DNA from: Microbacteriaceae bacterium | GTDB lineage: Bacteria > Actinomycetota > Actinomycetes > Actinomycetales > Microbacteriaceae | DNA length: 41,076 nucleotides | Assembly (NCBI GenBank): GCA_022487185.1 | Contig: JAKVJE010000008.1 | Span: 1-41,076 of the forward strand | Reading direction: 5' to 3' | Part shown: positions 15,917-21,232 of the stretch, piece after piece | Layout: every line of letters begins with the position of its first letter | How positions within the stretch are numbered: position 1 is the stretch's first letter | Program-made: the position numbers and the translations under genes | The notes under the pieces: model-generated | What the model was told of the DNA's origin: nothing | The model's input: only the letters and a program-made list of their open reading frames with translations | Databases searched by the model: none

Positions 15917-16789
15917 ATGGCCGACACCCCCGTGGAAGATTCGCAGTCCCTGTCCCAGTCCTCAGACCTGCAGCAGACAACCGAGACCTCGAATGAGTTC
16001 TTGGTTGCCTGGCGGCTCTGGCACGAAGAGGTGGAACGGGACCGCACCGACCCCCATGGGTTCCTGAGCGTGACTGGCATGTTCTGGCTGGCTGAGGAAC
16101 CACAGCGTATCCAGGGGATCCCTGGCGAGTGGATGCTGCGGGATGGCCGGGCCCAAGTCCTGCTGGGGCCGGGCGAATCGCTCCAGACGGGTGATGAGAT
16201 CACCGTCGAGGGGCGCTATGTGTTCCCGCGGCTGGCCCCCGAACAGGGGATCACCATGTCCTACGACGACATCGAGATTGAGGTGGCGGCCCGTGGGGAT
16301 GGGATCATCGTGCGTCCGCGCGACCCCCAGAATCCCCTGCTTGCAACGTACCCCGGGACCCCGGCGTACACCCCGGACCCGAACTGGCAGGTTCCGGGGC
16401 GCTTCCATCCGTTCCAAGAGCCCCGTCGGGTTGAGCACGGCACGGTAGCCGGGTATGAAGAGTTCGATCGCTCGCCCGGTGAGGTGTCGTTTGAGGTCGA
16501 GGGGGCTCCGCAGCGAGTGCTGGTCTACGGAGAGGTACGGGGGCCGTTCAGCCTCGTCTTCCGCGATGCGCTGGCCGGGATCGAGACTCCCGCGGCAAAC
16601 CGGCGGCTGACGATCGCGCCCCCCGCCGAGGACGGCAGCGTGGTGCTCGACTTCAACCGCACGCGGAACTTCCCGTGTGCCTACACCGATTTTGCGACCT
16701 GCCCGTTGCCTCCGGCCCAGAACGTTCTGACGGTGGGCATCCGTGCCGGGGAAAAGCTCCCGGTGGAGGGGCCGATCTCCCGGGCCTAG
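15917..16789 (+). CDS. DUF1684 family protein
   Basis: A 290-residue protein from the ATG at 15917, which has no ribosome site but a -10-like TACCAT six bases upstream. The hallmark C-terminal stretch of DUF1684 is present: DFNRTRNFPCAYTDF followed by ATCPLPPAQNVL and AGEKLP. The N-terminal WRLWHEEVERDRTDPHGFLS region, then YVFPRL and the RRVEHGTVAGYEEFDRSPG middle, also fit. The biochemical role of the family is unknown. It is divergent from the nitroreductase gene and shares a CTAG stop with the facing regulator gene. Confidence 0.88.
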   Translation: MADTPVEDSQSLSQSSDLQQTTETSNEFLVAWRLWHEEVERDRTDPHGFLSVTGMFWLAEEPQRIQGIPGEWMLRDGRAQVLLGPGESLQTGDEITVEGRYVFPRLAPEQGITMSYDDIEIEVAARGDGIIVRPRDPQNPLLATYPGTPAYTPDPNWQVPGRFHPFQEPRRVEHGTVAGYEEFDRSPGEVSFEVEGAPQRVLVYGEVRGPFSLVFRDALAGIETPAANRRLTIAPPAEDGSVVLDFNRTRNFPCAYTDFATCPLPPAQNVLTVGIRAGEKLPVEGPISRA

Positions 16790-17424
16790 GCGGCCTGGAC
16801 CAGCACGTCTGCATGCCGGTCGAAGCGGTATCCGATGCCCCGAACGGTGTGAATGATGTCCTGGAACTCGCCCAGTTTGGCACGGAGGCGGCGGACATGC
16901 ACGTCGATGGTGCGCAGGCTGGGGCGCTCGGTGCAGTCCCGCCACAGCTCGGACACGAGCGAGGCCCTCGGCACGGTCTCACCCTCGTGCTGGATGAGTT
17001 GCGCGAAGAGCCGGAATTCCTTCTCTGTGAGCCCGACCTGCCGTCCGTGGATGCGCACGTGCTGCCGTGTCAGGTCGACGACGACCTCCGCTGCCGGCTC
17101 GGGCTGCGCACGATTCCGGTCAGCGGCAGGATCGTGGAGGGCCAGCCGTACGACGTCGACGTCGCGCCCGCCGGCGCCCCGAGGCGCCAGAGCGACGGTG
17201 GCGTGGGTCTGAGCGTCGGGGACGAGATCTGCGACGGTCTGCTTCAGTGCGGCGACCAGGTGGGCCAGGCTCACACCGGACTGCGCGGCGGTCACCTCGT
17301 CGATTCCCACATAGAGTGCGAACCCTCGGGCCTCAGCGCGATCCGGAACAGGACGGAGGGCGGGGAGTGCGGGAGCGACGGGGGCTGAGTACGGACGACG
17401 GGAAGAGAGCTGGGTAATAGTCAT
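16786..17424 (-). CDS. winged-helix regulator without a receiver domain
   Basis: A 212-residue protein. Residues about 115-208 form an OmpR/PhoB-type winged helix: LTEKEFRLFAQLIQHEGETV, the RPSLRTIDVHVRRLRAKLG recognition helix, and VRGIGYRF in the wing. Instead of a phospho-receiver domain, residues 30-105 hold a different conserved-looking domain (GFALYVGIDEVTAAQSGVSL, AHLVAALKQ, DVDVVRLALHDP) of unknown function. Similar proteins occur in Micrococcales, from memory. The upstream region has 11-base direct repeats suited to such a protein, so it may control itself. Its stop shares CTAG with DUF1684. Confidence 0.9.
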   Translation of the reverse strand: MTITQLSSRRPYSAPVAPALPALRPVPDRAEARGFALYVGIDEVTAAQSGVSLAHLVAALKQTVADLVPDAQTHATVALAPRGAGGRDVDVVRLALHDPAADRNRAQPEPAAEVVVDLTRQHVRIHGRQVGLTEKEFRLFAQLIQHEGETVPRASLVSELWRDCTERPSLRTIDVHVRRLRAKLGEFQDIIHTVRGIGYRFDRHADVLVQAA

Positions 17425-17428
17425 GAGG

Positions 17429-17570
17429 ATGTGCTTTCAGAAGACCCCGGAAGGGGAAAAAGAGAAAAAAGAATGTGCGGACGTCACACAGACGTCACGG
17501 GAGAAAACTCTGAGGGACAGGAAGTCGCTCAGTGGCACATTCGACAGCACATCGCGACAGCGTCGCACAT
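17429..17570. repeat. five copies of GCACAT/ATGTGC upstream of the winged-helix gene
   Basis: GCACAT occurs on the + strand at 17535-17540, 17547-17552 and 17565-17570, and its complement ATGTGC at 17473-17478 and 17429-17434. The first three are spaced 12 and 18 bases apart and flank a small hairpin (GCGAC-agc-GTCGC, 17554-17566). Five in about 140 bases is far above chance for a hexamer. They may be protein sites or RNA structure in the leader. Confidence 0.5.
17480..17498 (-). promoter_or_regulatory. 11-base direct repeat, candidate site for the winged-helix regulator
   Basis: On the - strand GTGACGTC is repeated exactly 11 bases apart (GTGACGTC-TGT-GTGACGTC). One-turn direct repeats are the normal binding pattern of OmpR/PhoB-type winged helices. 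It lies 56-74 bases upstream of the regulator's start codon. Binding is an inference. Confidence 0.5.
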
Positions 17571-17642
17571 CATCATGGCTGACCCACCGTTCGTCACCTC
17601 ATGACGGACGATCGAGGGGAAAGCTATGAGAATCATACGGCA

Positions 17643-17671
17643 ATTGTCCCCATGTTCGGGCGCCGTGTCAA
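17643..17671 (-). promoter_or_regulatory. candidate promoter reading toward the winged-helix gene
   Basis: On the - strand a perfect TTGACA (17671-17666) is followed after 17 bases by GACAAT (17648-17643), a four-of-six -10 match. It would start a transcript with a leader of about 210 bases before the start at 17424. An alternative -10, TATGAT, lies a few bases further downstream. Confidence 0.5.
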
Positions 17672-17689
17672 ACCGGGGACGGAATGTCG

Positions 17690-18325
17690 CTAGTCGCAGA
17701 CGCCGTAGAGGCGATCTCCGGCATCCCCGAGTCCGGGATAGATGTACCCCTGCTCGTTGAGCCGGGGGTCCAGTGCCCCAAGGTAGACCTCGACATCGAG
17801 GCCGGCTGCGGCCTCCTCAACGGCCTTGACCCCTTCCGGTGCCCCGATGAGACACATGCAGGTAATCTGGGTGGCTCCGCGCTCGGTGAGGTATTGGATG
17901 GCGGCGACCAGCGTGCCACCGGTCGCGAGCATCGGATCGACCACGAAGCAGTGCCGTCCGGTCAGATCCTGGGGGAGTCGTTCCGCATAGGTGCTCGGCT
18001 TCAGAGTGGTCTCATCTCGCACGAGCCCGAGGAATCCCACCTCAGCGGTGGGAAGGAGGGCGGTCATCCCATCGAGGAGGCCCAGGCCGGCTCGGAGAAT
18101 CGGGACGACGAGAGGAGTGGGGCCGGCCAGCTTGGGGCCGGTCGTCTCTGCCACAGGAGTGGTGACAGCGACCGAGGTGAGGGGCAGATGCTCTGTCGCC
18201 TCGAAAGCGAGCAGCGTCACCAGCTCGTTGGCCAGCTGTCGGAACTGTGCCGACGGCGTATCTTGGTCACGCAGCAACGTGATCTTGTGGGCGACCAGGG
18301 GGTGCTCCGAGACATGAACGCGCAT
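17690..18325 (-). CDS. upp: uracil phosphoribosyltransferase
   Basis: A 211-residue protein, the usual length. It starts at the ATG at 18325; a longer frame exists, but the family start is [16 protein letters not shown]. The PRPP-binding loop is [10 protein letters not shown] near residue 130, and the uracil-binding C-terminus reads [16 protein letters not shown]. The enzyme makes UMP from uracil and PRPP in pyrimidine salvage. A TACACT element (18338-18333) seven bases before the ATG suggests a leaderless mRNA. It is divergent from tadA with only 37 bases between the starts, an arrangement common in actinomycetes. Confidence 0.97.
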
Positions 18326-18362: not shown

Positions 18363-18845
18363 ATGGGCTTGACGCATTCGAAGGTCTTTGACGAGTGGAT
18401 GGGCCGGGCTCTCGCAGAGGCCTCCCGCGCGACGGTGTCGGGAGACGTGCCGGTCGGGGCGATCCTTTTCGATGCCCTCGGGCAGCCGATCGCGGCGGCT
18501 CACAACGAGCGGGAGCGGGAGCAGGACGCCACCGCGCACGCCGAGGTCTTGGCGGTCCGGCGGTCCTGTGCCGCCTGGGGCTCCTGGCAGCTCCCGAACA
18601 CCACGCTCGTGGTCACCCTGGAGCCCTGCGCGATGTGCGCTGGCGCCATCCGTGCAGCCCGCATCCCCCGAGTGATCTTCGGGGCCTGGGATCCCGGTGC
18701 CGGGGCAGTGGGCTCGACCTGTGATCTGCTGCGGGACCGGGCGACCACTGCCGAGGTCGAGGTGATCCCCGGAGTATGCGAGGAGGAGTGCTCTCGGCAG
18801 CTCCGGGTGTTTTTCTCGCGGTTGCGGGGTCAGTCCTCCGACTGA
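18363..18845 (+). CDS. tadA: tRNA-adenosine deaminase
   Basis: A 160-residue member of the cytidine/deoxycytidylate deaminase superfamily. Zinc and catalytic residues are all present: H59 and E61 in TAHAEVLAV, and C89 and C92 in [10 protein letters not shown]. TadA converts A34 to inosine in tRNA-Arg(ACG), and that tRNA is encoded at 6765. The ATG at 18363 follows AGGGG with six bases between. The ADE-type [12 protein letters not shown] segment and the C-terminal [12 protein letters not shown] helix support TadA over other deaminases. The last 16 bases overlap the facing GGDEF-EAL gene. Confidence 0.95.
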
Positions 18846-21232
18846 CTGTCCCGGGGCGCCGCGGCGGCGTGCCGCGATCCCCGATGGCTGAGATGGGCGA
18901 TCAGCTCATCGATCGGGATCGGTCGGGAGAAGTAAAACCCCTGCTGATACCGGGCGCCGAGGCCTCTGAGCCACTCTGATTGCTCGGCGGTTTCGACCCC
19001 CTCGACCACCACGCTCGCATGGAAGGACTCGCCCAGGGCCAGCGCTGCGCGCACCCCGGCCTCGGCACGGCCGGTATTCCGAATATCGATGATCCGCTTA
19101 TCGAGCTTGATCACATCGATGGGGTACTCGCAGAGTGCGAGCAGGCTCGAATGTGATTTGCCCAGGTCGTCGAGCCCGAGCTGCAGCTGGGGATCCTCAG
19201 CAAGCTGTGCCACCTTCTCCTGGAGGGCGGGGCTCGGGGCGTTGAGTGAGAGTTCATTGAGCTCGATTACCAGCGAGATTCCCGGATACCGGTGCACGAG
19301 ACGGGCGCAGGTCGAGGCGAATTCGGCGTCGAGGACCTGATCGATATCGAAGTTCACATGGACCGTGCGCACCGTCGGGAGGACTTCCCGCATCTTGGCA
19401 GTGGCGGCCAGGGCCGCCCGCAGGATCTGGAGGGTCAGGCTGTTCAGAAGCCGTGCGCGGTGGGCCTCCCCGATGAGTCGGGCCACCGGGATCGGCCCCA
19501 GATTTGGGGCAGTGTAGCGAGCTAGGGCCTCGAGAGCCGTCACGGTTCCGGTGTCGGCGTCCAGGATCGGCTGGTACACGGCTTGGACGTGTTCCTCCAG
19601 GATGCCGCGCTGGATGATGAGTGATTCGTCGATGGGGGCGGTGGGGAGCGGACTGGTCTTCTCCCGGGCATGCTCCGCGGTGGCGATGGACTTTCCCCGG
19701 GTCGCATACATCAGCTGGTCGGCGGTCTCGAGCATGCTCGAAAGGTCCTGCTGGCCGGGCCGGGAAAAGGCGATGCCGTGTGAGATGCGCACCACGATCT
19801 GGTTGCCGTTGGCGGTGATCGGATCGCTGGTGCGGGTGGCGATACGGTCTGCGATATGGCGGGCCCGCTCGGGGGTGCCCACGTCCTCCAGAACGATCGC
19901 GAACTCGTCGCCTCCCACGCGGGCTGCCAGATCTCCGGTACGGATCGTCTGCTCCATCCGCGATGCCACCGTGCGGAGGACTTCGTTGCCGGTCTCGTGA
20001 CCGTAGTGATCATTGATCGACTTGAAATTGTCGATATCGATAAAGATGATGGCCACCAGCCGGCCCTCTGCCGCGGTTCCCGAGAGCCTGGCCAGATGAC
20101 TCTGCAGGGCCCCGTAGTTGGGGAGTCCCGTGAGCCGGTCGGTGTTGGCGAGGGTGCGCAGATGGCTGGTCTCTTCCGCATTCTGCCGGACGCGGGCCAC
20201 CACCGACACGATCCCGGAGATGAGCTGGGAATCCTGCTCGTTGAACGGCCGGGTCCATCGGCCGCGGGACAGGACCAGGTACTCGGATCCGCCGGCGGCG
20301 TCCGGTACCCGGGGGGAGATCACCGTGTCGGTGTGCAGGGAAGGGGTCTGGGTCCACATTGCCCGGAACCGGGTGGGCTCGACGCGTCGCACGACATCCA
20401 CCGCCCAATCCGCGATTTCGGGGACCGCGATCTCGGTCAGTTGCTGGACGGGAGACACCATGGCCGTGAATTTCTCCCGCAGGGACACGCTCCGGCGGAC
20501 GGAGACGATTCCGAGGGTGACGGCGATCGTGAAGACAATGACGATCACCGGTCCGGCAGAGAAATGCCCCTCCTCAAAGGCATACCAGTTGATGAAGCCC
20601 CCCACCGGGTAGGACAGCAGGGAGAGAACCAGGAGATAGAACAGGCCGTAGGAGGTGCGCAGGAGACTGATCGCCTGCGTCGCCCGATGGAGCGGGTATC
20701 CGTCCAGGAACACTGTTTTGGCCAGGGAGAGGCCGATCCGGATGGCGAGGAAGCTCCCCAGTGCCACGATGACGCCGGACACCGTCTGCCAGGTCAGCCC
20801 CTGCGCCCCTCCCGACGGGTCGACGAGGGTGCGCAGCAGAACCGCCACCGTCCCGGCGATCCCATCTTGCCCGGCCGCCTCTGCAGCTGGAGCGTAGCGC
20901 AGCCAGATTGCCCACGTGCCGAAGAAGACGCCGGCGATCCAGCAAATCATCAGTGCTCCGGTCCGTATTTGGGGGAGAAGCGCGGCGAGGAAGGCGGCCT
21001 CAGCACCCAGTGTCATAAGACCGTCCAGTGATGAGAGATGCAGGAACAGCATGGAGGAGCCCAGCACGCAGAACACGAGAACCAGGGGCACCCAGCTCAT
21101 CCGCAGGAGTTCTGTGGTGTTCAGCGCCGCACCGGCGACGAGGGCGGCCGGGGTGGCAATCCCCCAGAACAACGCCATCGGCCGACTCGACTGATACGCA
21201 TGACCGGATGAGAGGACGATCCGACCGTTCAC
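18830..21232 (-). CDS. membrane GGDEF-EAL protein (cyclic di-GMP turnover)
   Basis: An 800-residue protein from a GTG at 21232 preceded by a strong GGAGGA site. Seven or so membrane helices fill residues 15-250. The GGDEF domain (about 365-525) has DIDNFKSINDHYGH and an intact GGDEF near residue 442, with an RTGD inhibitory-site motif five residues before it. The EAL domain (about 550-785) keeps the expected acidic, Asn, Lys and Gln positions (LEALARY, HVNF, IELNE, DDLG, IKLDK, VEGVET, QQGF), but the usual DDFGTGYSSL loop reads DDLGKSHSSL. The cyclase looks active; phosphodiesterase activity is plausible but less sure. It faces tadA. Confidence 0.93.
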   Translation of the reverse strand: MNGRIVLSSGHAYQSSRPMALFWGIATPAALVAGAALNTTELLRMSWVPLVLVFCVLGSSMLFLHLSSLDGLMTLGAEAAFLAALLPQIRTGALMICWIAGVFFGTWAIWLRYAPAAEAAGQDGIAGTVAVLLRTLVDPSGGAQGLTWQTVSGVIVALGSFLAIRIGLSLAKTVFLDGYPLHRATQAISLLRTSYGLFYLLVLSLLSYPVGGFINWYAFEEGHFSAGPVIVIVFTIAVTLGIVSVRRSVSLREKFTAMVSPVQQLTEIAVPEIADWAVDVVRRVEPTRFRAMWTQTPSLHTDTVISPRVPDAAGGSEYLVLSRGRWTRPFNEQDSQLISGIVSVVARVRQNAEETSHLRTLANTDRLTGLPNYGALQSHLARLSGTAAEGRLVAIIFIDIDNFKSINDHYGHETGNEVLRTVASRMEQTIRTGDLAARVGGDEFAIVLEDVGTPERARHIADRIATRTSDPITANGNQIVVRISHGIAFSRPGQQDLSSMLETADQLMYATRGKSIATAEHAREKTSPLPTAPIDESLIIQRGILEEHVQAVYQPILDADTGTVTALEALARYTAPNLGPIPVARLIGEAHRARLLNSLTLQILRAALAATAKMREVLPTVRTVHVNFDIDQVLDAEFASTCARLVHRYPGISLVIELNELSLNAPSPALQEKVAQLAEDPQLQLGLDDLGKSHSSLLALCEYPIDVIKLDKRIIDIRNTGRAEAGVRAALALGESFHASVVVEGVETAEQSEWLRGLGARYQQGFYFSRPIPIDELIAHLSHRGSRHAAAAPRDSQSED

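Follow-up and report, generated by a model that had tools for sequence, protein, structure and literature searches.

The short repeats that precede an orphan winged-helix regulator gene in a Microbacteriaceae genome are, as far as their sequence goes, mostly codons for Met and Cys in a mini-gene that lacks an annotation, and this mini-gene, whose mRNA is able to pair with the ribosome-binding region of the regulator, probably controls the timing of regulator production. The mini-gene, a predicted short ORF that is widely conserved before the same regulator, lies in the window, i.e., the whole stretch of 41,076 nucleotides that was analysed, from a genome of which 1.29 Mb is assembled (83.8% complete) and whose nearest named relatives are Frigoribacterium. 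The features involved are as follows, in the order in which a polymerase on the minus strand would meet them.

17690 to 18325, minus strand: upp, upstream of the regulator and on its strand.
17666 to 17671, minus strand: -35 element TTGACA; TTGAC starts 35-38 nt 5' of the mini-ORF start in 61/72 loci.
17643 to 17648, minus strand: -10 element GACAAT, 6 nt 5' of the mini-ORF ATG; the best TATAAT-like hexamer is at -12/-13 in 53/72 loci.
17529 to 17636, minus strand: leaderless mini-ORF of 35 codons plus stop, MILIAFPSIVRHEVTNGGSAMMMCDAVAMCCRMCH-stop, with homologues in 76/78 family loci.
17568 to 17576, minus strand: ATGATGATG, the conserved Met-Met-Met (MMM) codons; the spacing from ATGATG to CGAATG is in frame.
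17554 to 17566, minus strand: local hairpin GCGAC-GCU-GUCGC in the mini-ORF, between MMM and MCCR.
17546 to 17553, minus strand: GAUGUGCU, leader arm complementary to the ribosome-binding site of the regulator.
17532 to 17552, minus strand: conserved C-terminal MCCRMCH block, with its Arg CGA at 17541-17543 and the stop at 17529-17531.
17535 to 17542, minus strand: GAAUGUGC, leader arm complementary to 17471-17478 (duplex -12.6 kcal/mol).
17480 to 17498, minus strand: GTGACGTC direct repeat, not conserved; its GACGTC is self-complementary, so an RNA hairpin too.
17471 to 17478, minus strand: GCACAUUC, arm in the spacer that complements the leader core and is 47-54 nt 5' of the regulator ATG.
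17445 to 17456, minus strand: small hairpin CCCC-UUCC-GGGG 5' of the regulator start.
17428 to 17435, minus strand: AGCACAUC, directly 5' of the regulator ATG and complementary to 17546-17553.
16786 to 17424, minus strand: orphan winged-helix regulator, with a PhoB-type C-terminal domain (residues 127-201) and no recognised receiver.

How widespread is the mini-ORF? Comparison of the regions upstream of 33 orthologues of the regulator brought out a short ORF ending Met-Cys-Cys-Arg-Met-Cys-x-stop, and with about one locus per genus considered, it precedes the orthologous regulator in 76/78 loci of the same family, comprising 32/33 of the first loci, 4/5 further ones and 40/40 from other genera. 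The first 32 leaders came from a search in which a CGAATG core, exact or nearly so, was obligatory, and of the 40 from other genera 39 were found by amino-acid pattern and one, L089, by eye, as were the leaders of L048 and L051. It is missing in L034, one of the first 33, and in L049, in which upp almost abuts the regulator gene. In the 72-locus set used for the analyses below a few start codons were assigned by fallback rules, one first codon is wrong and the L093 leader is possibly short. A strict DNA pattern for the leader has matches in 129/199 family genomes; among the matches listed there are, with site doubles merged, 116 leader places, 104 of which have a comparable regulator place, and 100 of these 104 are <600 nt upstream of the regulator and on its strand. 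Each of the 15 genomes that carry the in-frame pattern has a single exact match to it, and the other four matches in the window genome, at two mismatches, are imperfect. A second family of the same taxonomic order has the leader in another form in 10/17 loci (8/15, plus L052 and L053), with the same ending but with His, Gln, Ser or Pro following the Met; L098 was dropped from this count as a chance match. In a third family that has the regulator, the leader is in 0/6 loci. A simple pattern search at the MetQ loci of the window genome gave no similar leader, and at gathering score no Rfam riboswitch or leader family matches the window, only four tRNAs. A search of openly available papers, by title and start of abstract, found no description of the mini-ORF leader. 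A frameshift that would fuse mini-ORF and regulator was considered and rejected, as the distance between them falls in all three frames.

What is conserved in these leaders is the promoter spacing, the ATGATGATG codons in a hairpin, the C-terminal [C/R]CRM[C/H]x-stop and CGA for the Arg, with Met and Cys codons clustered in the last 7 codons, near the stop. The distance from ATGATG to CGAATG is 9-42 nt, depending on the leader, and is a multiple of 3 in 65/65; CGAATG is followed after 15 nt by the stop end in 69/72, and the stop itself is TGA in 39, TAA in 24 and TAG in 9 of the 72 leaders. For the last Arg the codon used is CGA in 72/72 of the analysed set, and since the search for the first 32 leaders required the CGAATG core, the count that matters is that of the 39 found by amino-acid pattern, blind to codons, in all of which it is CGA. 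Other Arg codons of the same leaders are CGA in 3/128. A variant pattern with CGC, CGG or CGT occurs in 7/199 genomes, with six of the seven places away from the regulator and one not comparable. The two leaders without CGA, those of L048 and L051, were read by eye and are outside the analysed set; that of L048, from a reduced genome, is MTTRAQLDGAPQGAMMPCSMCMCMCMCR-stop, encoded by a run of Met and Cys codons. TGT makes up 151/203 of the Cys codons at the leader ends, and some leaders have one to three Cys codons left. Among close leaders codon positions 1, 2 and 3 change equally, so the peptide is not clearly under selection, and from these comparisons the constraint seems to act on the codons and the RNA. 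Could the product nevertheless be a small functional peptide, rich in Met and Cys, that is merely cotranscribed with the regulator and acts in trans, e.g., as a binder of metal or of the regulator itself? The conservation of its Met-Met-Met and Cys-Cys-Arg-Met-Cys residues, and their strict linkage to the regulator, are as expected for such a peptide, but we consider it quite unlikely given the equal substitution at the three codon positions, a constraint that is at the level of nucleotides and codons (CGA, hairpin), Cys counts that are down to one in L032 and very few elsewhere, and the failure of NCBIfam to match any of 32 leaders.

The sequence-only reading had described a TTGACA-17-GACAAT promoter, and it is indeed there, as the sole promoter-like site within 17380-17720 (shuffles yield 0.0 +/- 0.2). 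As this promoter ends 6 nt 5' of the ATG, the mini-ORF is probably translated without a 5' UTR, the sigma-70-type elements putting the predicted transcript start at, or ~1 base from, that ATG. The leader of about 210 bases that the same reading proposed is right in length, as ~212 bases separate the predicted start from the regulator ATG at 17424, but about half of it is ORF. A transcript start close to 17424, which had been named as the finding that would overturn a long leader, is not indicated, for the spacing of promoter to mini-ORF is conserved in relatives. The suggestion that such a leader might add a further layer of control is supported, in that it contains both the conserved mini-ORF and a conserved RNA complementarity.

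The repeats that first drew attention to the region are real. The two copies of GTGACGTC, which on the plus strand reads GACGTCAC, are at 17480 and 17491, a spacing of 11 bases, and an exact 8-mer repeat at that spacing arises in 12/2000 dinucleotide shuffles and at spacings of 9-12 in 21/1000. The five ATGTGC/GCACAT hexamers are at 17429, 17473, 17535, 17547 and 17565, a number reached in 0/2000 shuffles, with any hexamer at five in 4/1000. The small hairpins (CCCCGGAAGGGG at 17445-17456 and GCGACAGCGTCGC at 17554-17566) and the A/T runs near 17460-17470 are likewise present. Three of the five hexamer copies are Met-Cys codons of the mini-ORF; the other two, complementary to them and located near and at the ribosome-binding site of the regulator, are accounted for by the pairs GAAUGUGC/GCACAUUC and GAUGUGCU/AGCACAUC.

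Do such repeats then serve the regulator as DNA sites for control of its own gene, as had been proposed from their distance of one helical turn and the OmpR type of the protein? The putative sites would be 17480-17498 and the TGTCGAATG region, or TGTCGAAT and ATTCGACA would be distant halves of an operator. The regulator does have a PhoB-type DNA-binding domain, the window has the 11-bp direct repeat and some loci have inverted copies of TGTCGAAT and ATTCGACA, but GTGACGTC is not conserved in relatives, the CGA-ATG region shifts by single-codon steps, because of which helical phasing would break, and lineages differ as to which part of the leader has the complementary partner, so that autoregulation of this sort has little likelihood. 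TGACGTC is in 2/72 loci and 8-mers repeated exactly 10-12 nt apart are in 3/72, the window being included in both counts; OmpR-type autoregulation through GTGACGTC is unsupported, and direct DNA repeats are ruled out as a conserved operator by their lack of conservation among the 72 loci. The GTGACGTC repeat is ~140 nt 3' of the predicted transcript start, and an RNA hairpin is an equally good reading of it, the GACGTC pair giving -10.6 kcal/mol. Together with a T-run, 17490-17474 is terminator-like in the window. A stricter scan, the threshold of which misses the window's site, finds terminator-like sites in 1/72 spacers (L080), and the site is essentially the window's own.

Given that constraint seems to be on RNA, what might the RNA do? 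In most relatives there is a hairpin around the MMM codons that is more stable than synonymous codons would give (mean -13.3 versus -9.7 kcal/mol, n=62, p 4e-11) and whose pairs are preserved through changes, e.g., GTCGGC/GCCGAC and GCCGAC/GTCGGC. In the window the GCCGGC hairpin that relatives have at this point is not clear, and there is a different hairpin at 17554-17566. The window leader folds better than 200/200 shuffles (z -3.98), with the regulator start region predicted to be paired with the ORF (0.59 of 0.69 paired), and 17419-17434 also matches 17565-17580 at 14/16. Across the loci, a complement of at least 8 nt between the leader end and the regulator start, the latter taken as 48 nt ending at the start codon, is present in 33/72 versus 4.05 expected from other segments of these loci, and one of at least 9 nt in 17/72 versus 0.99 expected; a control for direct identity gave 0/72. 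Same-family loci are kin, and expected counts based on shuffles understate that dependence. The complements fall mainly on the two conserved parts of the leader, 23 on the MMM codons and 7 on those for Cys-Arg-Met (CRM). A CATCATC-type motif occurs in 26 loci, all of them within the 65 that have ATGATG leaders, and 27/72 loci have neither pairing motif. In the second family at least 7 nt of complement to the CGAATG core is found at -35 to -43 for 10/10 leaders versus 0.9 expected. Other measures are less favourable. By total duplex energy the real pairs do not beat shuffles (p 0.83), and a leader matches the ribosome-binding region of its own genome 32 times versus 22.9 expected from those of other genomes (at 8 nt, p 0.10), so within-family covariation of the long-range pairing is weak. 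Blocking the leader end or MMM in silico does not on average free the start region (0.52 to 0.52 and 0.49, respectively). Overall, the RNA pairing has statistical support from these sequences; any direction of control and any signal are matters of inference. Reasoning from the size of a ribosome footprint, a ribosome that halted at the Cys codons would have opposite effects on the MMM and CRM pairing classes. Between leader ORF and regulator, 12/72 loci have in common a second hairpin-like element, of GAAGGATCACACCCTCATCATTAGAGGCCCTTCAC type (L010, L011, L012, L016, L056, L070, L071, L073, L074, L078, L083 and L087).

The account that we favour, and hold to be reasonably probable, is that 17689-17425 is a ribosome-dependent leader (attenuator) controlling translation of, or read-through into, the orphan winged-helix regulator. 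The transcript would start at or near the mini-ORF ATG, and a ribosome that translates this leader without a 5' UTR, or one that scarcity of charged tRNA, for Cys and perhaps Met, has slowed at the Cys-CGA codons near the leader end, would decide whether leader RNA pairs with the initiation region of the regulator and, in the window, may also decide the formation of the weak terminator-like hairpin, for one arm of which the leader core would compete. In this way the supply of sulfur amino acids, or translation itself, would be coupled to the level of the regulator. The leader codons suggest cysteine, perhaps methionine, as the signal.

Slowing near the stop might have another cause. If the mini-ORF encoded an arrest peptide, its C-terminus would stall the ribosome because a small molecule is sensed or CGA is decoded slowly, and would not read the supply of Cys-tRNA; the conserved residues at their fixed 15 nt from the stop end in 69/72 loci, and the invariance of CGA, would fit, but residues before the last seven vary widely, MMM excepted, we know of no ligand, and we judge this reading unlikely. 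CGA is decoded via an inosine-34 tRNA-Arg, which is a product of TadA, and the near-invariant CGA could itself be the sensor, with the leader reporting, via RNA pairing, on inosine-tRNA decoding or ribosome speed at CGA and not on cysteine supply, but the chances of this are slim indeed. The tadA gene adjoins upp in the window and was matched in 26/73 family loci, most of the others ending before the position of tadA is reached.

Among known systems the last residues of the mini-ORF leader are closest to those of the metL leader of Streptomyces lividans, a leaderless short ORF before metNIQ, a methionine importer operon, with C-terminus RCMCRRMCAF-stop and with hairpins, no typical Rho-independent terminator being described (PMC8079986). 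Both are leaderless short ORFs and RCMCRRMCAF-stop is very near MCCRMCA-stop, but metL precedes an importer operon and the mini-ORF a transcription factor gene, and the printed metL peptide, unlike the mini-ORF, is without MMM (PMC8079986). Since an MCRRMCA DNA pattern (CGN Arg codons only) matched 0/394 genomes of the class, the likeness is not entered as homology. Cysteine leader peptides precede actinobacterial cys/cbs operons, where the 2005 study reports no conserved terminator and suggests Rho-dependent termination (PMC1262725), and mycobacterial Cys uORFs are found on leaderless transcripts (PMC4633059). Those leaders and the mini-ORF are alike in being short ORFs with Cys codons near the stop, but the known ones mostly precede sulfur genes and have runs of Cys (PMC1262725, PMC4633059), whereas the mini-ORF has, as a rule, one to three Cys, its CGA-ATG is near-invariant, its RNA is complementary to the regulator start and its target is an orphan regulator. 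The gene that the mini-ORF precedes is the one for the winged-helix regulator, not one of cysteine or sulfur biosynthesis. Control of the regulator by translation of the leader ORF would be the simplest account, being of the kind proposed for actinobacterial cysteine leaders (PMC1262725, PMC4633059).

The regulator itself has orthologues in 35/36 genomes of the family in a first sample, its own genome counted, and in 195/199 of a larger one, at identities mostly of 50-60%. Its C-terminus is a PhoB-type winged helix (PF00486, E 1.1e-21, Pfam), the DNA-binding domain that it has in common with the OmpR/PhoB family, but a receiver is not recognised in its N-terminal ~110 residues, for which Pfam gave no match to that domain. 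A structure model of the N-terminal domain was dropped for low confidence (four-row alignment, mean pLDDT 55). The nearest solved chains to the C-terminal domain are 8hml, 8hig and 8hih, which we take to be GlnR-type orphan regulators, and a link to nitrogen is possible given that likeness. As to neighbours, upp is upstream on the same strand in 58/73 loci, its start in the window having been chosen on the basis that MRVHV is presumably its N-terminus. In the window a sulfur gene for a Cys/Met-metabolism PLP enzyme (PF01053; 13814-15061, minus strand) is 1.7 kb from the regulator, and as it is absent from the sampled flanks of relatives it was left out as evidence. A GGDEF-EAL protein is encoded at 18833-21232 (minus strand), in a genome of ~1.3 Mb assembled.

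An unannotated leader ORF fixed before a near-universal regulator of the family suggests that its signal comes via translation of the leader and not from a sensor kinase. That provides an entry point to a regulator to which no signal has been assigned, and would be a case of leader control acting on a transcription factor, with the persistence of a near-invariant CGA-AUG beside codons that change being a puzzle.
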